Shown piece after piece: positions 3,862-22,141 of a stretch of 48,499 nucleotides of DNA. The notes beneath the pieces were generated by a model. That model made no database searches. It saw only the letters and a list, made by a program, of their open reading frames with translations, and was not told the DNA's origin. Made by a program: the position numbers and the translations under genes. Source of the stretch: an uncultured bacterium (lineage in GTDB: Bacteria; Chloroflexota; Anaerolineae; J036; Brachytrichaceae); NCBI GenBank assembly GCA_903921365.1, contig CAIXPS010000272.1, positions 1 through 48,499 of the forward strand, read 5' to 3'. Position 1 is the stretch's first letter. Each line of letters begins with the position of its first letter.

Positions 3862-4722
3862 CTACCTCAACAAGTCCGGAATCTGTGTCGGCAGGTCCGC
3901 CATTTTGATCCCGGCAGCCTGCATCGCCGTTACTTTCCCCTGCGCAGTCCCCATGCCGCCTTCGATGATGGCGCCGGCGTGACCCATGCGCTTACCTTCT
4001 GGGGCCGCTCGCCCGGCGATAAAGCCAGCCATCGGTTTCTTTACATGATCTTTGACGTAAGCGGCAGCAATTTCCTCGTCTGAGCCGCCGATTTCACCAA
4101 TCATGACGATCTTCTCCGTCTGCGGGTCTTCGTTAAACAACTTGATGGCGTCGAGGAAGTCCAGGCCGTGCACCGGGTCGCCGCCGATCCCGACGCAGGT
4201 GCTTTGCCCCATACCGCTCTGGGTCAGCGCATTAATGACTTCGTAGGTGAGTGTGCCGCTGCGCGACACCAGTCCCACGTTGCCCGGTTTGCAGATGGAT
4301 GCGGGGATGATGCCAATTTTGGCCTGTCCTGGCGTGATCAGGCCGGGGCAGTTGGGGCCAATCAGAATCACATCGAGCGTGTCGAGATAGGCGCGCACGC
4401 GGATCATATCCTGGACGGCAACGCCTTCGGTGATGCAGATGATCAGATGGATGCCGGCGTCTGCGGCTTCGAGAATTGCATCGGGCGCGAACCGGGCAGG
4501 CACGTAGATGACTGATGCATTTGCCCCGGTCTCCCGCACAGCCTGACCGACCGTGTCGAACACCGGCACACCGTAATCTGTTTTCAAGCCGCCTTTTCCA
4601 GGGGTGACGCCGCCGACGATTATCGAACTGTATGCCTGCATCTGGCGGGCGTGGAAATCTCCTTCGCGGCCGGTGATGCCCTGAACGATCAAGCGTGTGT
4701 TGCGATCTGCAAGAATAGCCAT
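3862..4722 (-). CDS. sucD: Succinyl-CoA synthetase (ADP-forming), alpha subunit
   Basis: Catalyses, with SucC, the interconversion of succinyl-CoA, phosphate and ADP with succinate, CoA and ATP in the TCA cycle; cytosolic. The 286 residues match family length (E. coli 289). The N-terminal CoA-binding Rossmann domain holds the stretch [20 protein letters not shown] and GGVTPGKGG. The phosphorylated active-site histidine is His248 in [10 protein letters not shown], with the glycine-rich [10 protein letters not shown] loop after it. The gene starts 15 bases after hisIE, with AGGGA upstream of the ATG, and is the last gene of the train. Its partner sucC lies more than 5.6 kb upstream, on the other side of the whole his operon. 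Confidence 0.95.
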
Positions 4723-4737
4723 TATTTACAATCCCTT

Positions 4738-5397
4738 TTATGTGTTGGACGGATAGTGTCTGTCGCTCAGTCGTTGAACGACTTGTCGAAGCGACACATT
4801 GCGTTCGTTTAACAGGACTAACAGGTGATAGATCAGGTCAGCGGATTCATCGATCAGTCGATCGTCATCCTGGGCAACGCCAGCCATTGCGACCTCCAAC
4901 CCTTCTTCGCCCACTTTTTGTGCGATCTTGTGTCGCCCCTTGGCGAACAACCGCGCTGTATAGCTGCTGTCGGGTGAGGCGGTGCGGCGTTGGGCGATGA
5001 TCCCGGCGAGTTCATCGATGAAACCTGCCGCCGGCCCTGTCTCGGCTGTGCCGATGGCTTTGTCGATGGCTTTGCCATCCAGGATCTGCCAGAAACAGCT
5101 TTCTTTGCCTGTGTGGCAGGTTGGGCCAGCCGGTTCTGCGCGAATCAGGAGGGCATCGCTATCACAATCCGCACGTAGCTCGCGCACACGCAGCACGTTG
5201 CCGCTGGTTGCGCCCTTGTGCCATAGCTCCTGGCGGCTGCGCGAGTAGAACCACACTTCGCCGTTATTCAGTGTTAATTCGAGAGACTCGGGGTTCATCC
5301 AGCCGAGCATCAGGACGCGACCCGTGATCGCATCCTGGACGATGGCGGCTATCAGCCCGTTCGCATCGTATTTGAGAGTGGTTGACATCGGGGTCAT
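4738..5397 (-). CDS. hisIE: Phosphoribosyl-AMP cyclohydrolase / phosphoribosyl-ATP pyrophosphatase
   Basis: Bifunctional enzyme for the second and third steps of histidine synthesis. The N-terminal HisI domain (about residues 5-110) shows [18 protein letters not shown], the signature [16 protein letters not shown], and zinc/metal residues in [10 protein letters not shown] and [11 protein letters not shown]. The C-terminal HisE domain (about 125-215) shows [20 protein letters not shown], then EGLEVA and the metal-binding [13 protein letters not shown]. The length of 219 residues is usual for the fusion. Starts at residue 1 (5397) or 4 (5388) are both possible. It follows hisF by 30 bases and precedes sucD by 15. 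Confidence 0.95.
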
Positions 5398-5427
5398 TAT
5401 AGGCGGTAAGGCATGCCAGCAAGGGCG

Positions 5428-6186
5428 CTACAGGCGCACGGGGATGCCTCTGCCCGCAAGATATTCCTTTACCTCGCGGACGCGAAAGGTTTTGTAATGG
5501 AACACCGATGCTGCCAGCACGGCGCTCGCGCCTGCGGCGATGGCGTCATAGAAGTGTTCTAATTTTCCTGCGCCGCCGGAGGCGATGACTGGAATGTTGA
5601 GAGCGTGACTGAGTGTGTGGAGCAATGGAAGATCATAGCCATCCTGTCGACCGTCCGTGTCCATACTGGTCAGCAGTATCTCGCCGGCGCCGCGCGCTTC
5701 AGCCTCAATGGCCCACTTCACCGCGTCCAACTCGGTCGGCACGCGCCCGCCATTCAGGTAGACGCGCCAGCCATTGATGGAGCTATCCGCCTTTGCGTCG
5801 ATGGCGACAACCACGCACTGCGCGCCAAATCGATAAGCCGCCTCGTTGATGAGGGTGGGGTTGCGCACCGCCGAGCTGTTGATGCTGATCTTGTCCGCGC
5901 CTGCCAGCAGCAACTCGCGAAAATCCTCCGGCGCGCGCACACCGCCGCCAATCGTGAACGGGATGAACACCTCGTCCGCCACTCGGCGCGCCATTTCGAT
6001 GGTCGTGCCGCGGCCTTCGTGCGAGGCCATGATGTCGAGAAATACCAGTTCGTCGGCGCGTTCATCGTTGTAGATGCGCGCCTGTTCGACGGGGTCGCCG
6101 GCGTCGCGCAGATTGACGAAATTGACCCCTTTGACGACGCGTCCATTGGCAACGTCGAAACAGGGAATGATCCGTTTGGCTAACAT
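5428..6186 (-). CDS. hisF: Imidazole glycerol phosphate synthase, cyclase subunit
   Basis: Closes the imidazole ring from PRFAR and the ammonia delivered by HisH, giving imidazole glycerol phosphate and AICAR. The 252 residues fold as a beta-alpha barrel. The catalytic aspartates are seen in [15 protein letters not shown] (Asp10 or 11 region) and [10 protein letters not shown]. Phosphate-binding loops are visible as [18 protein letters not shown], and [12 protein letters not shown], with [19 protein letters not shown] between them. It lies 8 bases after hisA, so translation is probably coupled. Confidence 0.96.
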
Positions 6187-6194
6187 GCGTTCCT

Positions 6195-6938
6195 CTAATA
6201 TCCCTTCGCTGCTTCGATGGATTCGCGCAACGATAGCGTGCCTTCATACAAAGACCGACCAATGATGACGCCTGCCACACCGCGATGGGCGTACATCAAA
6301 AGCTCCTTGATGTCGTCAAGGTTGCGCACCCCTCCGGAAGCAATGATCTGCAACTCGGTAAGCTGTGCCAGAGCGCCGGTCATCTCCGCCGCCGGGCCTG
6401 TCATCATGCCGTCACGCCCGACCTCGGTGTAGAGCGCGTGCACCACACCCATTTGGTGCATTAAAACGCCCAGTTCCGCTGCGGGCATTTGAGTGCTCTG
6501 TTTCCAGCCGCGGGTCACGATCATGCCGTCGCGCGAATCCAACCCGATCACGACGCGTTCCGCGCCGTAACGCGCCAGTGTTTCTGATACAAGGCGGGGA
6601 TCTTCAGCAGCCGCAGTTCCAAGCACGACGCGGTCAGCGCCGGCGTCAAACGCAGCCTTTATATCTTCGATCGTGCGCAGTCCGCCGCCAAATTGAACCT
6701 TGATTTTGATGCTTGAGGCGATCGCGGAAAGCGCCTGCCGGTTGGGGCGACCGGTCGCAGCGTCGCCAAATGCGCCGTCAAGGTTCACCACATGCAGCCA
6801 TGATGCGCCCTCACTCGCCCAGCGATTCGCGACGGCAATCGGGTCCTGTGAATAGGTTGTCTGTTGCGCCGGGTCGCCTTGCTTCAAGCGGACGACGTTG
6901 CCGTTGCGGATATCGATTGCGGCATAAACCGTAAACAT
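6195..6938 (-). CDS. hisA: ProFAR isomerase
   Basis: Isomerises ProFAR to PRFAR by an Amadori rearrangement, the fourth step of histidine synthesis. The 247-residue barrel has the general base in [17 protein letters not shown] (Asp8) and the general acid in [11 protein letters not shown]. Phosphate-binding loops are [15 protein letters not shown] and [13 protein letters not shown], and [13 protein letters not shown] is also typical. The ATG overlaps the hisH stop by one base (TGATG on the minus strand), which is a classic coupled start. A PriA-type dual role is not indicated, since a full his set but no trp gene is near. Confidence 0.96.
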
Positions 6939-7573
6939 CAGGCTGCCTCCACAAAGTTTCGGAGTATTCGCAGACCCACATCCTGGCTTTTCTCCGGGTG
7001 GAACTGGATACCCCAGATTCTGTCTTTTGCGACGATAGACGCGAAGTCATACCCGTAATAGGTGGTTGTCACCACGTAGGCGGGATCGTCAACGACCGGG
7101 TGATACGAGTGCACAAAGTAGGCGTAGCCGCCGCGCGGCACGCCGGCAAGCAGTGGATGTTCCTGCGCCGGTTCTATCTGATTCCAGCCAATGTGCGGCA
7201 CTTTCAGGTGGAGAACGGATGGGTCAGCACCGGCAAGCGCGTCAAACTTAAAACGCACGATGCGGCCTGGAATGAGACCCAGCCCGCTCCACTCGCCCAT
7301 CTCCAGACCCACATCAAACAGCAACTGCATGCCGACGCAGATGCCCAGCAGGGGTTTACCCGATCGCCCAATCTGCTGCAACGGCTCAAACAGGCCTCTA
7401 TCGATGAGCCCCTGACGGCAATCGGCAAAAGCGCCGACGCCGGGGAGCACGATCTTATCGGCGCTCTCAATGATTCGAATATCGCTGGTTAACACGGGCT
7501 GCGTGCCGACGTGTTCCAGCGCTTTGCACACATTGCGCAGGTTGCCTGCGCCATAATCAATCACTGCAATCAT
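6938..7573 (-). CDS. hisH: Imidazole glycerol phosphate synthase, glutaminase subunit
   Basis: Class I glutamine amidotransferase that supplies ammonia to HisF. With the ATG at 7573 the product is 211 residues and begins MIAVIDYGAGNLRNV, the usual HisH start; an upstream in-frame start at 7603 adds ten residues overlapping hisB and is less likely. The triad is Cys79 (GICVGMQL), His192 and Glu194 (QFHPEK), and the oxyanion loop is PGVGAF at 44-49. It begins 19 bases after hisB and its stop overlaps the hisA start. Confidence 0.95.
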   Translation of the reverse strand: MIAVIDYGAGNLRNVCKALEHVGTQPVLTSDIRIIESADKIVLPGVGAFADCRQGLIDRGLFEPLQQIGRSGKPLLGICVGMQLLFDVGLEMGEWSGLGLIPGRIVRFKFDALAGADPSVLHLKVPHIGWNQIEPAQEHPLLAGVPRGGYAYFVHSYHPVVDDPAYVVTTTYYGYDFASIVAKDRIWGIQFHPEKSQDVGLRILRNFVEAA

Positions 7574-7592
7574 GGTTTCAGGTTTCCTGTAA

Positions 7593-8183
7593 CTAGATAA
7601 CACCTTTGGTGGATGGAATGCCTGCTCGGCGCGGATCTAGGGTCGTTGCCGCGCTCAACGCGCGGCCAAGCGCCTTGAACAAGGCTTCCGCTTTGTGGTG
7701 GTCGTCGCGGCCATACAGCACGCGCGCGTGCAGATTCATGCGGGCGTGCACCGAGATCGACTCGAAGACATGCGCGATGAGCGACGATGACAGGGCGCCG
7801 ATGTGATCCTGCGTGAACTCTGCTGTGAACACACAATAGGGTCGCCCGCTGAGATCGACGATCACTTGAGCGAGTGATTCATCCATGGTGACAAACGCAT
7901 CAGCCATGCGCGCGATGCCGGCGCGGTTGCCCAGCGCCTGGTCGATAGCTTGCCCCAGCGAGATCGCGACGTCTTCGACCGTGTGGTGTTCGTCAATGTG
8001 CAGGTCGCCCGTGGCATTTATGGAGAGATCAAATAGGCCATGGTGGGCGACATGGTGGAGCATGTGATCGTAAAAGCCGATGCCGGTATGGATATCGGCC
8101 TGACCGACGCCGTCAAGGTTCAACAGGACTGCAACATCCGTTTCTTTTGTGACACGATGAATCTCACCCGTTCGACCACTCAC
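7593..8183 (-). CDS. hisB: Imidazoleglycerol-phosphate dehydratase
   Basis: Manganese enzyme that dehydrates imidazole glycerol phosphate to imidazole acetol phosphate. The 196-residue protein is the monofunctional form, without the HAD phosphatase domain of the E. coli fusion. Metal-binding histidine motifs are [25 protein letters not shown] and the C-terminal [17 protein letters not shown]. The early [18 protein letters not shown] stretch is typical. It lies 38 bases after hisC. No separate histidinol-phosphate phosphatase gene is in the cluster, so that step must be coded elsewhere. Confidence 0.96.
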
Positions 8184-8221
8184 GTTTTGCTCCTTTACAC
8201 ACGCCTACGGCGAGTACACAT

Positions 8222-9331
8222 CTACACATCCAGACTTTGTATCGCACTCAAGACGCGATCCGTATCTTCCGGGCGTCCGACGCTGATCCGGATGCAATCG
8301 CGCAGTCCCGCGCGATCGAAGTAACGCACGAGGATACCGCGCTGTTCAAACGCCTGTTTCAACCCTTTTGCGTTCCTGAACCCGGTCATTCGTTCGGCGA
8401 TGCGACATAACAGGAAATTCGCGTCGCTGGGACACACGCGCACGCATTCGAACTGACTGAGCCCTTCGCCCAGCCGGCTGCGCTCCGCGATGAGCTTGCC
8501 GACCACGTCGCGCAGGTACTCCGGGTCGCTCAGTGCTGCGATGGCCGCGATGCTGCCAGCCACATTCGGCGTATAGGGCTGTTTGATCTTCCACAGATGT
8601 TTAATTACATTCAATGGGAAAACCCCATACCCGACGCGCAACCCCGCCAGTCCGGCGAGCTTGCTGAAAGTGCGCAAAATGATCAGGTTGTCGTAGCGCT
8701 GCACCCAGTCGGCGCGGCTCGGCTGTGTGCTGAAATCGATATAGGCTTCGTCAAGCACAACGACGACCGGGAGATCCAACAGGTGTTTGATATCCTCGTC
8801 CTGCACCGATGACCCGTCCGGGTTGTTTGGGTTCGTGACAAACAACAGCTTCGGGCGCGCGGTGTTGTTGACGGCCATGCTTATCGCGTCCACATCTATG
8901 GAGAAGTCGCTGCGGCGCGGCACGCCCACGTACTGCGCGTTCACGACGTCTGCCTCGAAGCGATACATTCCAAACGTGGGCGGCAGATCGAACACGGCGT
9001 CGCCTGGCTCGATGAAGGCGCGACCGATGATGTCGATCAATTCGTCGGCGCCGGAACCGCACAGGATGTGCTCGGCTGGAACGTCAATAAACGCTGCTAT
9101 TGCTTCGCGCAGTGCGGCTTGAGCGGGATCGGGATAGATATGCAGCGTATCTGCGGCGGAGATGGCTGCCAGCGCGCGCGGCGACGGCCCGTATGGGTTC
9201 TCGTTCGCGTCCAGCTTCACGATCTCATCGCGCGTCAGTCCCAGCCGCTTCGACAGGACATCGAACGGGACAATCGGGGTGTATGGACTCATCGAGCGCA
9301 GGTGTGGCGCGATTAACTTTTCAACGTTCAT
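8222..9331 (-). CDS. hisC: Histidinol-phosphate aminotransferase
   Basis: PLP enzyme of fold type I that transaminates imidazole acetol phosphate with glutamate. Starting at the ATG at 9331 gives 369 residues beginning MNVEKLIAPHLRSM; an ATG at 9373 would add 14 residues that overlap nothing useful and is less likely. The substrate motif KLDANENPYGPSP lies at 39-51, the Asn/Asp pair in VTNPNNPDG and VLDEAYIDF, the Schiff-base lysine is Lys224 in RTFSKLAGLAGLR, and the phosphate-binding Arg is in IRISVG near the end. It follows hisG by 49 bases, the widest gap inside the his set. Confidence 0.95.
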   Translation of the reverse strand: MNVEKLIAPHLRSMSPYTPIVPFDVLSKRLGLTRDEIVKLDANENPYGPSPRALAAISAADTLHIYPDPAQAALREAIAAFIDVPAEHILCGSGADELIDIIGRAFIEPGDAVFDLPPTFGMYRFEADVVNAQYVGVPRRSDFSIDVDAISMAVNNTARPKLLFVTNPNNPDGSSVQDEDIKHLLDLPVVVVLDEAYIDFSTQPSRADWVQRYDNLIILRTFSKLAGLAGLRVGYGVFPLNVIKHLWKIKQPYTPNVAGSIAAIAALSDPEYLRDVVGKLIAERSRLGEGLSQFECVRVCPSDANFLLCRIAERMTGFRNAKGLKQAFEQRGILVRYFDRAGLRDCIRISVGRPEDTDRVLSAIQSLDV

Positions 9332-9380
9332 ATAGGGTGTGTGCCGGAGTGCACTGGCAGACAGTTGACGCACGAGCGCA

Positions 9381-10382
9381 CTATCTGCCTGCGGCCAATA
9401 GCTCCTTCAACGCGCGCACGCGATCAGGTTGTTCCTCAAAGATATAGGTAACTGGCGTCACCACCACGCCACTGCCTCCGATGCTGCGCAGTTGCTGGAT
9501 CGCGCCAGTCAGTTCATTGCGCGGCACGATCAAGTTGACGGCAAACCAGGGCTCGTGACCATGGCTGACATAGACGGGCGCAAGCGTCGGCCCTTGCAGA
9601 CCGCCCAGCGTCGTCTGTGTTCGCAGCGCGTGCGCCACAACCTCGGCGGTGTCGCCGCGCATATTGGCAAACACCATCACATAGCGTTCGGCGCGCAGAT
9701 GAGCCTCGAAGTATTCGAGCAGGGTAATCGCGATGGCCGTCACTTCGGGGCGTTGCAGCGACTGGCGGTTTGCTACCAGCGTGGATTGCGTGTTGAGGAT
9801 GACCCCGTCGCTGAGAGGCCGCAGCCGATTTTGCTGTAGCGTCGAGCCGGTCTCAGTGATATCCACAATGATGTCCGCGTAACCGATTTCAGGCACGACC
9901 TCAAGCGATCCTTCGGCGTCGATCAGTTGAAAAGGTTCCACGCCGTGTTGGCGCAGGAATGCGGCAGTCAGTTTGTGATACTTATTCACCACGCGCAGGG
10001 GTTCCGGTAATGTGGCGGTCTTGCGCGCCAGGTCGGCCATGGTGAACACATCACCCCAGCTTTCCGGCACTGCGACTACCACCTTGCATTTGCCATAGCC
10101 CAGAGCATCGTGCAGTACCGTCGTGTGGCCCTCGTCATCCACATCGGCGATGACGTCATACCCCGTGATCCCAAAGTCGACGCCGCCATTGGCGACGCTG
10201 ACGGCAATATCGCGCGGTCGTTGGAATAGAACGGTCACGCCCGGCAGGCTGGGAATGCTGCCCACATAGCTGCGCGAAACCGATTGTTTGACGTCGAACC
10301 CACAGTGCGCCAGGAACTCAAGCGTGGGCTCCTGCATGCGTCCCTTGGAGGGCAGGGCGATTCTAATGTCTGTGCGAGCCAT
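9381..10382 (-). CDS. hisG: ATP phosphoribosyltransferase, long form
   Basis: First step of histidine synthesis: joins ATP and PRPP to phosphoribosyl-ATP. The 333 residues include the periplasmic-binding-protein-like catalytic part (IRIALPSKGRMQEPTLEFL at the start, DFGITGYDVI near 70, and the PRPP loop in DITETGSTLQQNRL) and a C-terminal extension that fits the long, histidine-inhibited form that works without HisZ. It is somewhat longer than the E. coli enzyme (299). The ATG lies only five bases after the sucC stop and has no clear ribosome-binding site of its own, so its translation probably depends on that of sucC. Confidence 0.94.
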   Translation of the reverse strand: MARTDIRIALPSKGRMQEPTLEFLAHCGFDVKQSVSRSYVGSIPSLPGVTVLFQRPRDIAVSVANGGVDFGITGYDVIADVDDEGHTTVLHDALGYGKCKVVVAVPESWGDVFTMADLARKTATLPEPLRVVNKYHKLTAAFLRQHGVEPFQLIDAEGSLEVVPEIGYADIIVDITETGSTLQQNRLRPLSDGVILNTQSTLVANRQSLQRPEVTAIAITLLEYFEAHLRAERYVMVFANMRGDTAEVVAHALRTQTTLGGLQGPTLAPVYVSHGHEPWFAVNLIVPRNELTGAIQQLRSIGGSGVVVTPVTYIFEEQPDRVRALKELLAAGR

Positions 10383-10387
10383 GGGGT

Positions 10388-11533
<1,146 letters not shown>

Positions 11534-11570
11534 GTGGTTTCATCTGCCTCAAACATTCTAGTAAAAATTA

Positions 11571-12422
11571 TCAAGATTCAACGATACGCTTGATTGAATA
11601 GTCCAGGTGGATCAGGCCGTCAATCAGATCGGCCTCGGTGGCGGAGACCTCATTGCGAATAGCGCTCAAGTCACTGCCGCCTGCTGACAACACAATGGTG
11701 AGATGGATGCCGTCTTCAAGCATCTGACCGCGTGACTTGATATACACCGCCGGATGTCTGGATTGGGCGTGGAAGAGCATCTCGGCGATGCGGGATTCGT
11801 CGCCTCGATCCAGAACCAGTGTGCGCTCAATATATCCGCCTGCGCCGATGGTGTGCGCGAGCACTGGCTGCAATGAACTGGTGAAGATATCCTTCATCTC
11901 GGACGGCACGCCAGGCAGGCATACGATGGTCGTAATGCCGTTTACGTCAAGCACGATCCCAGGCGCTGCGCCGTTCGGGTTTAATATCGGCCGGCTGGTG
12001 CGCGGGATCAACGCCATCTTTCGCCTGGCCTCGTTCAAGTCTGCGCTGAAGTTGGGGCGGATGGAGGCAATATATTCATAGCGCTTGCGCACCATTTCGA
12101 GCGCAATTTCATCCTCGTATAACTCAAGATTGAGCGCGCGCGCCAGTGCGCGCAAAGTCAGGTCGTCGTCGGTTGGCCCCAGCCCGCCGGTAGTCAGGAT
12201 CAGGCGCGGCCCGCGCCTTAAACCGCTTGCGAGCGCCTCGGCAATCTCATCATATTCATCACGCAGAATCACCGCGCGGCGCACGCGCGCGCCAATGCCC
12301 GTCAGCGAGCGCACCAGCCAGTAGGTGTTGGTGTCCTGCACCTGCCCGACAAGGAGTTCGTTGCCGATTGCGAAAATCTCGACGCAACGATCACAATCGT
12401 CGCTTTTGTTCAGTTCATCCAT
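11571..12422 (-). CDS. CinA-like molybdopterin-binding-fold protein (no deamidase domain)
   Basis: The 283 residues match the N-terminal part of CinA (competence/damage-inducible protein A). They open EIFAIGNELLVGQVQDTNTY, followed by the family signature LTTGGLGPTDDDLT near 77-90 and PGVPSEMKDIF near 170. In CinA this domain has ADP-ribose/NADH pyrophosphatase-type activity. The C-terminal nicotinamide-nucleotide amidase (PncC) domain of full-length CinA, about 160 residues, is absent, and residues after about 250 do not replace it. The gene lies 26 bases after the M20 peptidase gene and 37 before sucC, in the same transcription direction. Confidence 0.88.
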   Translation of the reverse strand: MDELNKSDDCDRCVEIFAIGNELLVGQVQDTNTYWLVRSLTGIGARVRRAVILRDEYDEIAEALASGLRRGPRLILTTGGLGPTDDDLTLRALARALNLELYEDEIALEMVRKRYEYIASIRPNFSADLNEARRKMALIPRTSRPILNPNGAAPGIVLDVNGITTIVCLPGVPSEMKDIFTSSLQPVLAHTIGAGGYIERTLVLDRGDESRIAEMLFHAQSRHPAVYIKSRGQMLEDGIHLTIVLSAGGSDLSAIRNEVSATEADLIDGLIHLDYSIKRIVES

Positions 12423-13862: not shown

Positions 13863-15293
13863 ATGGCAAAGATCACACCTCGGTCCAAAGATTATTCTGA
13901 GTGGTACCTTGACGTTATTCGTGAAGCAGATATGGCGGATTACGCGCCGGTGCGCGGCTGCATAGTTGTCAAGCCCTATGGCTGGTCGCTGTACGAGAAC
14001 ATGCGCGATTTTCTCGATAAGCGTTTTAAAGACACGGGACATAGCAACGCGGCTTTCCCCATGTTTATTCCCATGAGTTTTCTGCAAAAGGAAGCGGAGC
14101 ATGTAAAGGGGTTCAGCCCGGAACTGGCGATCGTCACAATTGGCGGCGGCGAGGAGCTGGAAGAGCCGCTGGCGGTTCGCCCGACGAGCGAGACCATCAT
14201 CGGGTACATGTACGCCCAGTGGGTGAAGTCCTACCGCGACTTGCCTGTTTTGATTAATACCTGGAACAGCGTGGTGCGTTGGGAGAAACGAACGAAACCA
14301 TTCCTGCGCACGATGGAATTTTACTGGCAGGAAGGTCATACCGCACATGCGACGCATGAAGACTCTCAGGCAGAAGTCATGCGGATGCTGGATGTGTATG
14401 AGCAACATGCGCTCACCGAGTGCGCCATCCCTGTGATCAAAGGGCGCAAGAGCATCAGCGAGCGCTTTGCGGGCGCTAACAACACGTACAGTATCGAGGC
14501 CATGATGGGCGATCGCAAAGCCTTGCAGTCGGGCACAAGCCACGACCTCGGGCAAAACTTTGCCAAAGCCTTCGATATCAAGTTCCTCGATCGCGATAAC
14601 ACCGAAAAACTGTGCTGGACGACGTCGTGGGGACTGAGTTGGCGCATGTTGGGCGCCGTTATTATGGTTCATGGTGATGATCAAGGGTTGCGCCTGCCGC
14701 CCAGGATTGCGCCCATTCAGGTCGCGATTGTCCCCATATACCGCAATGATGCCGAGAAAAGTGTCGTCATGGAGACCGCAGCCCGCGTCTTTAAGACACT
14801 CAAGGACGCAGGGTTGCGCGTCAAGCTGGATGACCGCGAAGAAACGCCTGGCTTCAAGTTTAACGATTGGGAAATGCGCGGCGTGCCGGCGCGGGTGGAG
14901 ATCGGGCCAAAAGACGTGGCGAATCATTCCGTGGCGTTGGCGCGCCGCGATGTGCCCGGTAAACCCGGCAAGGCGTTCGTGCCGCAGGACGGTTTGCCGG
15001 AGCGCGTGATTGCGCTTCTTGATGAAATCCAGGCCGGTTTGTTGAAGCAGGCAACCGCGTTTCGCGATGCCAACATCCGCGAAGTAAACACTTATGATGA
15101 ACTGAAGGCGGCCGTAGAGGACGGTTTTGCGCTGGCGCCCGTGGTTGACGACCCGGAGGTCGATGCAAAGATCAAAGAGGAAACCAAAGCCACCAACCGC
15201 AATTTCCCGCTTGATCAGGCCGAGGGCGAGTGGAAGTGCATCATCACAGGCAAGCCGGTGCGGGAGCGGGCATTGTTCGCCAGGGCGTACTAA
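13863..15293 (+). CDS. proS: Prolyl-tRNA synthetase, archaeal/eukaryote type
   Basis: Charges tRNA-Pro. The 476-residue protein is the short ProS type found in archaea, eukaryotes and some bacteria: it lacks the editing insertion between motifs 2 and 3 of the E. coli type. Motif 2 lies in VVRWEKRTKPFLRTMEFYW (about 138-156), motif 3 in WRMLGAVIMVHGDDQG. The anticodon-binding domain begins near IQVAIVPIY, and a C-terminal zinc-type domain ends with the tyrosine of RALFARAY, as is typical of this type. It is followed 15 bases later by a GH3-like gene with no functional link to it. Confidence 0.96.
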   Translation: MAKITPRSKDYSEWYLDVIREADMADYAPVRGCIVVKPYGWSLYENMRDFLDKRFKDTGHSNAAFPMFIPMSFLQKEAEHVKGFSPELAIVTIGGGEELEEPLAVRPTSETIIGYMYAQWVKSYRDLPVLINTWNSVVRWEKRTKPFLRTMEFYWQEGHTAHATHEDSQAEVMRMLDVYEQHALTECAIPVIKGRKSISERFAGANNTYSIEAMMGDRKALQSGTSHDLGQNFAKAFDIKFLDRDNTEKLCWTTSWGLSWRMLGAVIMVHGDDQGLRLPPRIAPIQVAIVPIYRNDAEKSVVMETAARVFKTLKDAGLRVKLDDREETPGFKFNDWEMRGVPARVEIGPKDVANHSVALARRDVPGKPGKAFVPQDGLPERVIALLDEIQAGLLKQATAFRDANIREVNTYDELKAAVEDGFALAPVVDDPEVDAKIKEETKATNRNFPLDQAEGEWKCIITGKPVRERALFARAY

Positions 15294-15308
15294 GTCCGAA
15301 CCATTGTC

Positions 15309-18305
15309 ATGCAATCACGGCACAGGCAAACCCAGAGGTTACACGGCCGCGACCACCGCGTTCTAAACGCATTCCTGGTGATCGTGGCGGTATTTTGTCA
15401 GGTGGTTGCCGCGCCGATGACGGCTGCTGGACAAACTGCGACGCCTCCGCCGTATGCCCGCAATGTTGCAGCCATCGTCAAGGGGATGACGGTCAATCAA
15501 AAAGTTGGTCAGCTCTTCATGGTGAGCTTCCCGGGCACTGATACGACGCCGACATCTGATATCGCCGATCTGATCATCAACTATCATGTTGGCGGCGTCC
15601 AGTTGCGCGCCGCGAATCAGAATATCACCAATGGGACGGACGGGACGCGCCAGCTTGCCGAGTTAACCAACCGGTTGCAGGCGTTGGCTGCCGTCACGCA
15701 GACCACTGTTGCACTTGACGTAACCGCTACGCCGGCAGGATTAAACGCGCTGCGCACCCTGCCACTCGGCGTTGACACCATTCCTCTGTTCGTTGCGACT
15801 TCTCAGGAAGGAGACGGCGCGCCCTATTCCAACATTACACAAGGGCAGACCCAGATACCCAGCGAACTCGCCATTGGCGCTACGTGGCGCCCGGACAATG
15901 CGGGCATCGTAGGCCAGATCACGGGGCGCGAGTTAACAGCTTTGGGCATCAATGTGTTGCTAGGCCCGATTCTGGACGTTCTGGACGATCCAAAACCGAC
16001 AACGCCAGTGGATATCGGCACCCGCGTCTTCGGCGGCGACCCCTACTGGGTGGGTCGATTTGGCGCAGCCTATGTGAGCGGTGTGCACATTGGCAGCCAC
16101 AACCGGATCGCTGTTGTGGCCTCCCGTTTCCCAGGGCTTGGGTCTTCTGACCGCAGTGTGGAAGATGAAATCCCCACCGTGCAGAAGTCGCTCGAACAAC
16201 TGAAGCAGATTGAACTGGCGCCATTTTTTGCGGTGACGCAAGTGTCGAATGACCAACCCATCACCGCCACCGTCGATGGTCTGCTGGTATCGCATATCCG
16301 CTATCGCGGTTTCCAGGGAAACATTCGCGCCAGCACAAGACCGGTGAGTCTCGACCCGATTGCGTATCAGGCGCTGATGTCTCTCCCCGAAATAGCGCCC
16401 TGGCGGAATGCGGGCGGCGTCACTTTCAGCGACAATCTGGGGGTGCGCGGCGTCAGGCGGTTCTACGATCCACTCGACCTGACCTTTAATGCCCGTCGCG
16501 TGGCTCAAGAAGCCTTTTTAGCCGGCAATGATGTTCTTATTCTGGGTAATTTCGGGCTGAACAACTCCTGGCAGGAGGAGCTTGCGAACATCAAGGACAC
16601 AATCCAGTTCTTCCGTGAGCGCTACGTCAGCGACCAGACCTGGGCGGCGCGTATTGATGCTGCGCTCGCGCGCATTATTGCGCTTAAGTTGAAGCTATAC
16701 CAGGGGGTGCTCACCACTGAGAATGTGGGCGTCAACGCTTACTTTGCCAGTCAAATAAATACCAGCAATGAGATGATCTCAAATATTGCCAAGCAAGCGG
16801 TGACGCTTTTGTCGCCCAGCGCGCGTGATCTGCCGTCGCTTGTGCCGGCCGCGCCCGGGAAGGATGAGAGCATCGTATTCATCACCGATGATCGCCAGAT
16901 ACGCGATTGCACCCGCTGCGCGCCTTATTCAGCCATCTCGCGCACTGCGTTGCAGGAAATCGCTCTAAACCTGTACGGGCCAAAGAGCACTGGACAACTC
17001 AACCCTTCGCGGGTGTCCTCGCTCTCGTTCAACGACTTGGCGGAGTACAACACGCGCGCAGCCGCTTTACCCACGCCCACGGTCAGCTTGTCAGTGACAG
17101 TAACGCCGACACTCACACCGATTACGTCAACCGCAACGCTGACCCCGACTGCGCTTAACGATTCGGTGAACGCACAGAAGGCGATCGACAATGCAGACAT
17201 GGTTGTTATCGCGATGCTTGACTTGAGCGCGGATTCCAAGTCGACGAAAATATTCCGCGATTTTCTTGCCCAGAGGGCCGATTCGCTGCGTGACAAACGA
17301 GTCGTAGTGTTTGCATTTGGCGCGCCGTACTATCTGGATACGACAGAAATCAGCAAACTGACCGCCTATTTTGGCGTGTATAGCCGGCAGCCCGTATTTC
17401 TTGAGGCGGCGATTCGGGCGCTGTTTGGTGAATTTCCGCCTGACGGCGCCTCGCCGGTTTCGATTACGGCACTGAACTACTCCTTGTTGCTGCAAACAGC
17501 GCCGGATCAGCAGCAGGTGATCACACTCATTGCGTCAAACCCGCTCTCAAATACGCAGGTGGCTACCGGGCCGCTTGAGATGAAGATCGGAGATAAACTG
17601 AAGCTGCGCGCCGGGCCGATCGTTGATCACAATAACCGTATTGTTCCGGACGGCACACAGGTTCAGTTTGTGCTGGCCTATCCATCAGAGCGTGTCGAGC
17701 AGCAGCAACCGGCTGTTTCCACACGCGACGGCATCGCAGAAACGATCGTCGTAATTGAGCGTAAAGGGACACTGGAGATACGGGCACAGGCCGATCCGGC
17801 GCTTACGTCATACGTCATCCGAGTGAACATCGGCGACAACGCGGTTTCCATTGAGACGATCAAGCCGACGGCGTTGCCCACTGCGACGCCGGAACCATCG
17901 CCGACGGCGACAGACAAACCCACGATCCCTGCGACGCTCTCGACAACACCGACGCTGGCGGCGCCGTCGGCGCCTGCGATTGTCAGGTCGAGTCTGGGTG
18001 GTTTTGTGATCACGATGCTCGTTTTAGTTGTAATTGCGCTGGTCGCGATCCTGACACTGAACGCGACCGGGCGGCTGCGTTCGGGGATGCGCTGGCGCGT
18101 GACATTGATCAGTTGGAGCGCTGGCTGGATCAGCTATGTCTTGTATGTCACGGGGGCGCCCGGAACGAATCGCATCGCGACCCTGATGGGCTGGTATGGG
18201 TCAGTGATCCTGGCTGTCGTGGTTGCATCCCTGGCGCTCATTGCCGGCGTAGCGGTCACCTTTTTTGTCAATCAGCAATCGAGTAGACCAGTCAGTGGAA
18301 GCTAA
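15309..18305 (+). CDS. Membrane-anchored GH3-like (NagZ-type) protein with altered active site
   Basis: A 998-residue exported protein. Residues 20-41 form a signal peptide or anchor (LNAFLVIVAVFCQVVAA). Residues about 55-420 resemble the GH3 barrel of beta-N-acetylhexosaminidases (GMTVNQKVGQLFMVSFPG; EGDGAPYSNI). The nucleophile is retained as Asp375 (FSDNLGVRGV). The usual KHFPGHG loop that binds substrate and carries the acid/base histidine further on is instead SRFPGLG at 272-278, followed by SSDRSVEDEIP with no histidine. A GH3 C-terminal-like domain follows, broken by a Thr/Pro linker near 590-615. After a second Thr/Pro stretch (about 855-890) come three membrane helices near the C-terminus. 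It precedes a GlmS-type isomerase gene, which suggests amino-sugar turnover; it could also be a non-catalytic wall-binding protein. Confidence 0.8.
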   Translation: MQSRHRQTQRLHGRDHRVLNAFLVIVAVFCQVVAAPMTAAGQTATPPPYARNVAAIVKGMTVNQKVGQLFMVSFPGTDTTPTSDIADLIINYHVGGVQLRAANQNITNGTDGTRQLAELTNRLQALAAVTQTTVALDVTATPAGLNALRTLPLGVDTIPLFVATSQEGDGAPYSNITQGQTQIPSELAIGATWRPDNAGIVGQITGRELTALGINVLLGPILDVLDDPKPTTPVDIGTRVFGGDPYWVGRFGAAYVSGVHIGSHNRIAVVASRFPGLGSSDRSVEDEIPTVQKSLEQLKQIELAPFFAVTQVSNDQPITATVDGLLVSHIRYRGFQGNIRASTRPVSLDPIAYQALMSLPEIAPWRNAGGVTFSDNLGVRGVRRFYDPLDLTFNARRVAQEAFLAGNDVLILGNFGLNNSWQEELANIKDTIQFFRERYVSDQTWAARIDAALARIIALKLKLYQGVLTTENVGVNAYFASQINTSNEMISNIAKQAVTLLSPSARDLPSLVPAAPGKDESIVFITDDRQIRDCTRCAPYSAISRTALQEIALNLYGPKSTGQLNPSRVSSLSFNDLAEYNTRAAALPTPTVSLSVTVTPTLTPITSTATLTPTALNDSVNAQKAIDNADMVVIAMLDLSADSKSTKIFRDFLAQRADSLRDKRVVVFAFGAPYYLDTTEISKLTAYFGVYSRQPVFLEAAIRALFGEFPPDGASPVSITALNYSLLLQTAPDQQQVITLIASNPLSNTQVATGPLEMKIGDKLKLRAGPIVDHNNRIVPDGTQVQFVLAYPSERVEQQQPAVSTRDGIAETIVVIERKGTLEIRAQADPALTSYVIRVNIGDNAVSIETIKPTALPTATPEPSPTATDKPTIPATLSTTPTLAAPSAPAIVRSSLGGFVITMLVLVVIALVAILTLNATGRLRSGMRWRVTLISWSAGWISYVLYVTGAPGTNRIATLMGWYGSVILAVVVASLALIAGVAVTFFVNQQSSRPVSGS

Positions 18306-18348
18306 CACAGGTGAGAGTAATTCAAGAAGGGAGACGGGAAGAACGACT

Positions 18349-18696
18349 ATGGGTTTTCTGAAACGCTTATTTGGCGGTGATAGCAAGCCGGTCTCGCGCG
18401 ATGAGAGTGATGCGAATGCCCTCATTCTGTATGTGAAGGGTAAGAAATGCGGCGCGATTGCGCGCGTCCGCGTGGACCTGCGCAACGATTTAAGCCTGGA
18501 TGACGATGGTGAAAACTATGTCGTTCGCAAGCAGGTTGTTGACAATGTCTGTTACGGGATGGCTGAACTGGAACTGCATTTTGACGTGAACCATAAGGAA
18601 GTAAGCCGCGCAGTTACAAATGGTGAGATTGTTGCGCGCGCGGACTGGGAACAGCAGGAGTCTTTGCGCATTGCGCCACGCTCGCGCAATCAGTAG
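18349..18696 (+). CDS. Small conserved-looking protein of unknown function
   Basis: A 115-residue protein I do not recognise. The ATG at 18349 is chosen because AAGAAGGGAGACGGGAAG lies just upstream and it gives the amphipathic start MGFLKRLFGGDSKPV; an in-frame start at 18265 would overlap the GH3-like gene. The middle, ALILYVKGKKCGAIARVRVD and LRNDLSLDDDGENYVVRKQV, looks like alternating beta strands, with a single CG motif and a later CYG. The basic, amphipathic N-terminus could touch the membrane. It lies between the GH3-like gene and the SIS protein gene on the same strand, with gaps of 43 and 16 bases, so it is probably in the same transcript. Confidence 0.7.
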   Translation: MGFLKRLFGGDSKPVSRDESDANALILYVKGKKCGAIARVRVDLRNDLSLDDDGENYVVRKQVVDNVCYGMAELELHFDVNHKEVSRAVTNGEIVARADWEQQESLRIAPRSRNQ

Positions 18697-18712
18697 CCAG
18701 TGGGATAATCGC

Positions 18713-19780
18713 ATGATGAATGACAGCCTGCCTGCCGCCCTGATGCGGCGTGAGATATTCGAGCAACCCACAGTTCTCACCAACCTGGTCAAAAACGCGC
18801 GCGCGACACTCACGGAAGTCGCGAAGCGGGCGCAGGATTGCCAGTTTGCGGTGCTGGCTGCGCGTGGTAGTAGCGACAATGCGTCTACCTATGGGAAGTA
18901 TTTGCTGGAGGGACTGGCAGGCATGCCGACGGCATTGGCGGCGCCGTCGCTCTATACGCTGTATCACACATCGCCAAGGTTGAAACGCGCACTGGTGATT
19001 GGCGTTTCCCAGAGCGGTCAGTCGGCTGATGTCGTCGAGGTTTTGCAGGAGGCGCGGCGACAAGGCGCGGTGACGCTTGCTATCACGAACACCGATGGTT
19101 CCCCCATCACTAATGCTGCTGATCATGTGATTTTGCTCGGGGTAGGGCTGGAGAGAGCGCTGGCTGCGACTAAAACGGTGACAGCACAGTGCGCAGCCTA
19201 TGCCCTGCTGGCAAGCCTGCTGGTCGCTAACAAAGAACTTGACAAGGCTCTTGGGGATATCGCAAGCTACGTGACCAACGTGCTCAATCAAGAGCAGGTT
19301 ATTGCGTCGCTGGTCATCGACTGGCTGACCGCAGGCCGGGCAGCCATCCTCGGCCGAGGTTACTGCTACGGCGCTGTTCAGGAGACAGCGCTCAAGCTTA
19401 AGGAGACGTGTTATCTCAGCGCGGAACCTTATTCCGCAGCCGACTTCAAGCATGGCCCGCTTGCGATGATTGAGGCAGATTACCCGGTGATGGCGCTGCT
19501 GAATAACGATGCGACGTTGCCCACGACGCTCGAACTCGTGCAGCAGGTGCGCGATCGAGGAGCTAAGGTGATTGGTATTGCGTCGGATCGTCATGCGCCG
19601 GGCATCTCCGGTGTCGCAAGCCTGGCGCTCAACGATCCGTCGCCCACCGCCCCGTCGCCATTGTTAAGCACGATTCCGTTCATCGTGGCGGGGCAGCTCT
19701 TTGCGATGCACCTGGCAACTCGCAAGGGCTATAACCCCGACCTTTCCCGAGGACTGAGCAAGGTAACAGTCACCCTCTAA
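18713..19780 (+). CDS. SIS-domain sugar-phosphate isomerase/deaminase (GlmS C-half / NagB-II type)
   Basis: Two SIS domains without the glutaminase domain of GlmS, 355 residues. The first has AARGSSDNASTYGKYLLEG and VSQSGQSADVVEVLQEAR; the second has ILGRGYCYGAVQETALKLKE and PYSAADFKHGPLAMIE, whose Glu and His match catalytic positions of GlmS. The C-terminus DLSRGLSKVTVTL keeps the lysine of the GlmS tail. Such proteins are often glucosamine-6-phosphate deaminases or related isomerases, so the likely substrate is glucosamine-6-phosphate (inference). ATGs at 18713 and 18716 are both possible; GGGA at 18702 fits either. A GH3-like gene upstream and an MFS carrier 34 bases downstream suggest amino-sugar uptake or recycling. 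Confidence 0.87.
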   Translation: MMNDSLPAALMRREIFEQPTVLTNLVKNARATLTEVAKRAQDCQFAVLAARGSSDNASTYGKYLLEGLAGMPTALAAPSLYTLYHTSPRLKRALVIGVSQSGQSADVVEVLQEARRQGAVTLAITNTDGSPITNAADHVILLGVGLERALAATKTVTAQCAAYALLASLLVANKELDKALGDIASYVTNVLNQEQVIASLVIDWLTAGRAAILGRGYCYGAVQETALKLKETCYLSAEPYSAADFKHGPLAMIEADYPVMALLNNDATLPTTLELVQQVRDRGAKVIGIASDRHAPGISGVASLALNDPSPTAPSPLLSTIPFIVAGQLFAMHLATRKGYNPDLSRGLSKVTVTL

Positions 19781-21181: not shown

Positions 21182-22141
21182 ATGAGCGGCTTACAACCAC
21201 AAGACGATGAAGAAGATGACTCACAATTGCCAACATGGGCGCGCCAGTTGGGGAGGCAGGGATATCGCTCATTTATCACCTTGATCGAGACCTATTTCGC
21301 CAATCGGAACATGCCGGTCGCCATTGACTCAATGGAAGGACTGGTGAAACCGGAGTTAGGCGTTTTGCCATATAGCAGCACTTTTGGCCTGCAGAATATC
21401 GCCCAGATATGTCAACAGGCCGGCCGCGATGAATGGCGCGACTTGATCAATGCCCACTTCGGTTCGATATTTGACGCGAAGGATGATGATAACGCGCTCC
21501 ACGTGCATATGGATGACTTCGCCCGATTACGCGAACAGTTGCGCGCAAGGCTTTACCCTGTCGATATCGTCAGTCATGCGACGGAACTCATCGAACGTCC
21601 AGGGCCAGAGGGCACACTGGAAGTGCTCGCGCTTGATCTGCCCACCACCGTGCGGACAGTGTCGAAGTCTGAAGCTGACCTTTGGGGACTGGACGCTGCG
21701 CAGCTTTTTAACGTCGGCCGCGATAATTTGCGGCGCGGCGGGTTGCTCAAGGGCAATGTCGTGCAACTGGAGCAGGGGACGACTGTGACGGTGTATATGG
21801 GCGACCCGTTCTATGCTGCCAGTCATGCGTTGATCATCGATGACTATGTCACTGCCGACATGACGCACGGCATGCTGGTGGGCTTGCCTAAGCGTGATGT
21901 CATGCTTCTCCATCCCATTCGCAACGTGGGAGCAATGGAGGCTGCCGGCGCCATGCTGCAGATCGTCGTGGGGATGTATCGTGACGGCCCCGGCTCAATC
22001 AGCCCGAATCTGTACTGGTATCGCGAGGGTGAGTTTGTCGTCCTGCCGTATGAACTCCAGGATGACTTCCTGCAGTTCCTGCCGCCAGACGAGTTTAGCG
22101 ACTTGATCGACGAACTGGGTGAAGTCGCTGGATTTTCGTAA
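21182..22141 (+). CDS. DUF1444-like protein of unknown function
   Basis: A 319-residue soluble protein with an acidic N-terminus (residues 8-14). Residues about 145-185, LEVLALDLPTTVRTVSKSEA followed by DLWGLDAAQLFNVGRDNLRR, and about 215-260, ALIIDDYVTADMTHGMLVGL then PKRDVMLLHPI, resemble the YtpQ/DUF1444 pattern of a strand, a helix with a conserved Leu-Gly turn, and a PxRD strand. I cannot name a reaction. It is co-directional with the MFS gene (29 bases upstream) and the HAD gene (29 bases downstream). The family match is from memory of the motif and needs a profile search. Confidence 0.65.
   Translation: MSGLQPQDDEEDDSQLPTWARQLGRQGYRSFITLIETYFANRNMPVAIDSMEGLVKPELGVLPYSSTFGLQNIAQICQQAGRDEWRDLINAHFGSIFDAKDDDNALHVHMDDFARLREQLRARLYPVDIVSHATELIERPGPEGTLEVLALDLPTTVRTVSKSEADLWGLDAAQLFNVGRDNLRRGGLLKGNVVQLEQGTTVTVYMGDPFYAASHALIIDDYVTADMTHGMLVGLPKRDVMLLHPIRNVGAMEAAGAMLQIVVGMYRDGPGSISPNLYWYREGEFVVLPYELQDDFLQFLPPDEFSDLIDELGEVAGFS

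Follow-up and report, generated by a model that had tools for sequence, protein, structure and literature searches.

The solved structures closest in sequence to the protein described here are N-acetylglucosaminidases of glycoside hydrolase family 3 (GH3), of which the two-domain enzymes NagZ/YbbD of B. subtilis (3BMX, 4GYJ) and RmNag of R. miehei (4ZM6) are examples. In the RmNag report (PMC4680927) the pocket of that enzyme is lined by Asp80, Arg149, Lys179, His192, Asp268 and two Met residues, the distance given for its dyad is 6.3 A, either H192A or D268A abolished hydrolysis, and GH3 beta-glucosidases are described as drawing their acid/base Glu from the second domain. For RmNag3, a further report (PMC6987092) describes a dyad of Asp227 and His229 and hydrogen bonds from Lys216 and His217 to the sugar. 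We analyzed a DNA stretch of 48,499 nucleotides (the window), part of contig C272 in the genome of an uncultured bacterium of the class Anaerolineae, phylum Chloroflexota (6.88 Mb, 603 contigs, 96.9% complete). At 15309..18305 on its forward strand, the strand of all window coordinates below unless noted, it encodes a GH3-like membrane-anchored protein of 998 residues, which we have named GH3L. GH3L belongs to a family in which the catalytic Asp-x-His dyad is missing and whose genes nearly always occur together with a gene for a tail-anchored Ser/Thr kinase, and its role is probably to sense on behalf of that kinase rather than to cleave sugars.

Window residues were matched to the RmNag and RmNag3 sites through alignments, and in the alignment with 4zm6 the GH3L segment KHFPGHGDTATDSH faces SRFPGLGSSDRSVE without a gap. 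Residues 272-278 (16122..16142) read SRFPGLG in place of KHFPGHG, and residues 279-287 (16143..16169) read SSDRSVEDE, with S283-V-E285 at the position of the dyad. The equivalent of the GH3 nucleophile, D375 in FSDNLG (16431..16433), is kept. All three features had been named in a first-pass annotation made from the sequence, and all three were borne out by the alignments.

A 77-member alignment was composed of the window protein and 76 of the best 80 of 433 loci from named genomes, three near copies (L051, L072, L113) and one locus with a broken frame (L069) being left out by hand; a first, smaller alignment held the window protein and 25 of 29 family loci (L011, L013, L014 and L025 omitted). 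As controls we used 22 canonical NagZ sequences, namely E. coli nagZ and 21 loci from relatives that matched the NCBIfam NagZ model NF003740 with at least 100 bits; three more matches at that level had no locus and hence stand outside the controls. Both dyad residues were present in 22/22 controls and in 0/77 GH3L members, the Asp position being occupied by Asp in one member and the His position by His in three, never in the same row. D281, R282, R331, C534 and C537 were invariant across the family, and E287 (75 of 77), D375 (73), H329 (72) and D527 (72) were nearly so. R331 and H329 lie in SHIRYRGFQGNIR (residues 328-340, 16290..16328), and R331 was found in none of the 22 controls. At the remaining pocket positions, R239, the Arg of the GxR(S)F motif, is kept in the window, in 64 members and in every control, as is the nucleophile Asp of the (S/T)D motif in every control, while the sugar-binding Asp that precedes the QEG motif is S165 in the window and is Asp in 12 members versus 21/22 controls. 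The Lys-His pair of KHFPG, invariant in the controls, is S272-R273 in the window; position 272 is Lys in 60 members and position 273 His in 64, and both residues are kept in 55 members, among them L105 of the cultured Thermanaerothrix daxensis, whereas 22 lack the pair.

A residue tree was built from 99 rows (77 members and 22 controls) as a quick tree, which warns of long canonical branches, and the GH3L family formed one side of a branch with SH-aLRT support of 99. Changes counted on this tree were one for dyad loss, 12 for Lys-His loss and three for nucleophile loss. With a single change against 12, the dyad is, on the evidence of the aligned residues, lost once and early, at the root of a family that spans the class, and the S-R of the window is one of several later losses. 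The first-pass annotation was correct as to the residues; S-R is derived in few lineages, whereas dyad loss is basal. Chance or a local artefact was set aside as an explanation (orthologs in 42/60 relatives, and a loop that is gap-free in 26 rows), as was a dyad hidden by misalignment, given that the loop is ungapped against canonical NagZ of related bacteria.

Relatives of GH3L in the named collection came from the Chloroflexota (Anaerolineae, with Anaerolineales, Ardenticatenales, Thermoflexales, Roseilinea and others), and an ortholog with a match above 240 bits was found in 42 of 60 relatives of the window's bacterium. In a phylum sample of 251 genomes GH3L was carried by 26 that belong to the class and by a single genome from outside the class (G069), after one of 28 matches, that of G006 (178.7 bits), had been removed as a canonical NagZ. 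In G069 the GH3L, kinase and FHA genes (see below) are found together. Against NF003740 the window protein scored 39.3 bits, where the cut-off is 207; of the 21 controls taken from relatives, all with the dyad, 10 likewise scored too low to pass it. Canonical NagZ, at 100 bits or more, was detected in 12 of the 42 relatives that bear GH3L and not in the other 30, and is no required companion of GH3L. Four GH3 matches were found in the window's own genome, the best NagZ score among them being 50.9 bits, below the cut-off of 207.

Gene neighborhoods were counted over 80 loci, of which 74 have at least 1 kb of sequence downstream and 70 at least 1 kb upstream. A Ser/Thr kinase gene lay within 4 kb downstream of GH3L in 41/74 loci; two of these matches (L109, L116) are distant, at 45-47% identity, so that the close and adjacent kinases number 39/74. 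A gene for an FHA-winged-helix protein lay within the same distance downstream in 34/74 loci. Upstream the corresponding counts were 2/70 for the kinase (31% identity) and 0/70 for the FHA gene. The usual order is GH3L forward, kinase reverse and FHA forward, and in L098 all three genes point in the same direction. Pfam returned Pkinase, FHA and Trans_reg_C for two sets of these genes and for the pair in the window's own genome, where the kinase gene (Pkinase, 143.9 bits) adjoins the FHA gene at C511:23471-25223, on a different contig from GH3L.

Of 27 FHA proteins encoded in clusters next to GH3L, 25 were aligned, and the kinase alignment covered 33 of 35 kinases (L083 and L103 omitted). The VAIK-type Lys (K45), the HRDxKPxN motif (H147-R148-D149-K151-P152-N154) and the DFG motif (D167-F168-G169) were invariant in all 33 kinases, and each of the 33 carries a single C-terminal hydrophobic helix. 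The kinases stop at this tail helix or a short tail beyond it, the longest, in L120, being about 55 residues, and none has a fused extracellular sensor domain. A GH3L-kinase fusion was considered for a 1682-residue frame of G357 and rejected, the frame showing no kinase motif on scanning and the kinase lying on the opposite strand. A role in defence was likewise rejected, as PADLOC matched only the kinase, to defence-system kinase models, as any Hanks kinase might. Genome G184 carries two GH3L-kinase-FHA modules (loci L218 and L219), one with a GH3L reading AGSFPG and the other AKHFPG, which makes them a natural pair for the study of Lys-His loss.

The two genes also occur together at the level of whole genomes. 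Among the 60 relatives 42 have both GH3L and the kinase, none GH3L only, three the kinase only and 15 neither; a class sample of 150 genomes gave 100, 2, 3 and 45 in the same order, and the phylum sample gave 27 with both, 224 with neither and no discordant genome. The three samples overlap; with each genome counted once, 129 carry both genes, two GH3L only and six the kinase only. Two GH3L matches were taken as one split gene in five genomes (G303, G328, G333, G369, G393), and the coordinates, as we read them, place two copies in each of five class genomes (G029, G184, G313, G357 and G382, the last partial). Two kinases above the score limit were found in four of these five and in no other genome, and in the fifth, G184, a second kinase of 359.9 bits adjoins the second GH3L. 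Counted kinase orthologs scored at least 395 bits, and the second kinase of G184 shows the score limit to be imperfect. An uncounted diverged kinase was considered for the 15 relatives with neither gene and rejected: a looser limit gave five matches in three of them, the best at 271 bits. A side effect of genome completeness was weakened as an explanation, since in the same 60 genomes canonical NagZ showed no association (p 0.14) and the FHA gene a weaker one (p 0.007).

Relatedness was taken into account by means of an rpoB tree built for 55 genomes. Its first part was made up of 28 genomes of the window's bacterial family with G053 and G059, and its second part of 15 of the 20 GH3L-less class genomes (the other five being in the first part), G231 and 14 positives; five genomes were dropped because rpoB was missing or fragmentary (G003, G004, G007 and G020, which have both genes, and the mismatch G014), and five class mismatches lie outside the tree. 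GH3L changed 13 times on this tree and the kinase 11 times. Eight independent pairs were separated by supported branches, of which six agreed, two had the same kinase state and none disagreed (p 0.031), and canonical NagZ showed no association in the same test. On a tree of the window's family alone two pairs agreed and two were uninformative, which is too few pairs. The rpoB result is supportive, not decisive. Overall, the coupling of GH3L and kinase is well supported.

The open reading frame of GH3L begins with ATG and has no internal stops, and the sole Pfam family matched was Glyco_hydro_3 (PF00933, 109.6 bits, cut-off 27) over residues 61-433, the N-terminal TIM-barrel domain (15489..16607). 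The AlphaFold2 model (mean pLDDT 87.2, pTM 0.79) starts with a hydrophobic helix at the N-terminus, continues with the TIM barrel, the second GH3 domain and a beta domain, and ends with a disordered linker followed by the C-terminal helices. VIA-align matched it to RmNag 4zm6 with Z 47.2 (522 residues, 2.7 A) and to B. subtilis NagZ 3bmx with Z 43.8 (549 residues, 3.0 A), so that the two-domain GH3 fold is present. The second GH3 domain is placed by alignment, model and VIA-align at residues 486-730 (16764..17498, limits approximate), and includes a CxxC motif (C534 and C537, 16908-16919) that is invariant in 77/77 members and in this probably secreted protein is possibly a small disulphide loop or a metal site. 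An Ig-like beta domain follows at residues 730-845 (17496..17843, limits approximate, from the models and Foldseek), for which the top Foldseek match, a weak one, was alpha2-macroglobulin (E 7.6e-4).

The first-pass annotation had predicted a signal peptide, Thr/Pro linkers and three C-terminal helices. The N-terminal helix at residues 12-33 (15342..15407), seen in the model and by hydropathy, is a probable signal peptide, and Pro/Thr-rich stretches of low model confidence were found both as an insert at residues 586-616 (17064..17156, limits approximate) and, with Ser, as a linker at residues 846-895 (17844..17993). All three C-terminal helices appear in the model (residues 896-919, 925-948 and 963-991; 17994..18281) and, with the beta domain, again when the tail was modelled separately (mean pLDDT 87.6, pTM 0.49), but only two segments of the tail are strongly hydrophobic in a hydropathy scan. 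By the same scan strongly hydrophobic tail segments numbered three in 31 of the 77 members, two in 37, one in eight and none in one.

From these results we consider it reasonably probable that GH3L is the extracellular part of a receptor kinase split into two proteins, and that this part is non-hydrolytic. The first-pass annotation had offered either a wall hydrolase or a glycan-binding pseudoenzyme; the pseudoenzyme is favored here, and the pairing with a kinase shifts its likely role to that of a receptor part. GH3L would be a secreted, C-terminally membrane-anchored member of the NagZ branch of GH3 whose His-Asp dyad was lost once, and it has most likely lost efficient glycan hydrolysis. 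Its GH3 domains and Ig-like stalk would extend toward the wall as the outside part of the receptor, and its C-terminal helices would sit in the membrane next to the single tail helix of the kinase. Kinase activity may then be altered, through contact between the two proteins, by how the old sugar pocket is occupied or by its conformation, with the signal running from GH3L inward; ancestry and predicted topology suggest a wall glycan as the ligand of this pocket. The kinase would hand this signal on, probably to the nearby FHA-winged-helix protein, a target suggested by FHA biology and gene order. We put forward more tentatively, at rather less than even chances, the full pathway in which Anaerolineae have recast a peptidoglycan-recycling glycosidase as a kinase receptor whose pocket reads wall glycans or muropeptides, whose helices gate the kinase and whose signal reaches DNA through the FHA-winged-helix protein.

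GH3L may still be an active enzyme that employs a different acid/base. As a surface glycosidase it would attack through D375, with D281, E287 or a residue of the second domain such as D527 as proton donor, and the kinase would regulate the enzyme or its wall target rather than respond to it. Conservation of D375 (73/77), D281 (77/77), E287 (75/77) and D527 (72/77) fits this account, as does the second-domain acid/base of the GH3 beta-glucosidases, but the Lys-His pair has been lost repeatedly, the RmNag substitutions H192A and D268A each ended hydrolysis, and D375 itself is gone in four members. Two of these four (L058, L059) still have a kinase adjacent, and a receptor or adaptor therefore fits them better than an enzyme; on balance we regard the glycosidase as unlikely. 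We think it similarly improbable, if anything a shade more so, that GH3L is a non-catalytic scaffold which anchors or positions the kinase at the wall, or acts as a substrate of the kinase or as a partner that targets it, and senses no small ligand. Variable pocket residues alongside a hydrophobic tail in 76/77 members (hydropathy scan), and a copy number that tracks the kinase, are what a scaffold would show. A plain scaffold has, however, no need of four GlcNAc (N-acetylglucosamine)-pocket residues, R239, K272, H273 and D375, kept jointly in 44/77 members, nor of the invariant D281, R282 and R331 that lie near pocket residues in the sequence. The retention of these four residues with D281, R282, E287 and R331 favors ligand binding without efficient turnover.

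An ordinary NagZ, with an equivalent dyad supplied by another loop, was the outcome that the first-pass annotation had named as its own refutation. The fold is indeed nearest to solved GH3 N-acetylglucosaminidases, and in the 30 relatives in which no canonical NagZ was detected GH3L could supply the activity. The loop nevertheless aligns gap-free to canonical NagZ of related bacteria, the NagZ model scores far below its cut-off, and the window protein also lacks the Lys, the His and the sugar-binding Asp, so that we consider this account extremely improbable.

Several observations weigh against the receptor reading that we prefer. The joint retention of R239, K272, H273 and D375 exceeds what a dead enzyme needs, as does the nucleophile kept in nearly all members, and the aligned residues suggest that some chemistry or binding may persist in the family. 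For the remaining two D375-less members (L055, L090) no kinase lies within 4 kb downstream, and there are bacterial families, that of the window included, in which the kinase does not adjoin GH3L. Six genomes have the kinase without GH3L (G001, G014, G017, G343, G400, G404) and two GH3L without the kinase (G368, G399). Four of the class mismatches (G368, G399, G343, G404) run into the end of their contig on the flank that should carry a linked partner, and this explanation is supported for G368 and G404 because in their congeners, G320 and G327 respectively, GH3L and the kinase are neighbors; for G343 it is weak, its congener G365 having the genes on separate contigs, and the mismatch of G400 is not at a contig edge. 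G069, the sole genome outside the class, is listed with 8% contamination and its copy may be foreign DNA. The FHA protein is present in 12 of the 18 relatives that lack GH3L and therefore has other roles or partners. Finally, Fisher values take no account of relatedness, and the tree-corrected p is no lower than 0.031, from genomes whose states for both genes were known when they were picked and from which the mismatch G014 had been removed.

In the window GH3L lies in a run of genes (13863-19780) in which it starts 15 bases after a proline--tRNA ligase and is followed by a small protein of about 115 residues (18349..18696), and then by a SIS-domain protein that resembles the glucosamine-6-phosphate deaminase NagB-II (221 bits, below the cut-off of 430), which would be an amino-sugar link. 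The small protein adjoins GH3L in the window's lineage and directly follows it in 11/81 loci, and a Pfam search with its relative from L047 gave no match. A cluster of AAA-type ATPases (one searched against Pfam) is near GH3L, mostly upstream, in 19/81 loci (e.g. L105 5864-8007), and a second cluster, which we take to be glycerophosphodiester-phosphodiesterase-like, is similarly placed in 13/81. Elsewhere in the window, positions 3862-12422 on the reverse strand carry ordinary genes, namely histidine biosynthesis (HisIE, a HisA/F type protein, HisG and an aminotransferase), a CoA-ligase-type protein and a MoCF-domain protein, and a 319-residue open reading frame at 21182-22141 had no match in Pfam or NCBIfam.

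Compared with the two-domain GH3 N-acetylglucosaminidases, GH3L has in common both GH3 domains, the nucleophile Asp and the FPGxG loop; it lacks the Asp-x-His dyad and, in the window form, the Lys-His pair, and it adds an Ig-like domain, a Pro/Thr linker, C-terminal membrane helices and a kinase partner. The family is also a caution against tallying genes of the GH3L type as N-acetylglucosaminidases when carbohydrate enzymes are counted in metagenomes. The structure of mycobacterial LpqI (6gfv) also matches the GH3L model (VIA-align Z 38.7), but LpqI is a lipoprotein according to its PDB entry and a hydrolase, whereas GH3L is without the dyad and carries C-terminal helices. One report describes LpqI as a GH3 hydrolase of peptidoglycan recycling (PMC6572805).

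Among kinase systems, PASTA-type Hanks kinases (PknB, PrkC, StkP) join a cytosolic kinase to the outside through one transmembrane helix, with wall glycan as a possible signal and FHA proteins as likely targets. The GH3L system differs in that its outside domain is a separate, GH3-derived protein. YycH and YycI have folds unrelated to that of GH3L, and resemble it as membrane accessory proteins of a kinase, which in their case belongs to a histidine kinase system. They are described, in one report, as accessory membrane proteins of WalK that tune this wall-related kinase (PMC7355866). In the top-ranked listings of the open-access literature we found no description of a dyad-less GH3 family or of its pairing with a tail-anchored kinase, and to our knowledge the way in which these hard-to-grow, widespread bacteria monitor their walls has not been studied. 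The GH3 fold and the kinase type are both known, and what is new is that a GH3 ectodomain without the dyad has a tail-anchored kinase as its partner. If a catalytic fold has been put to use as the outer half of a kinase receptor, in a pairing that is visible from genomes, it would be a concrete two-gene target, and if the proposed pathway is correct the Anaerolineae would possess a class-wide wall-sensing system functionally parallel to the PASTA kinases.

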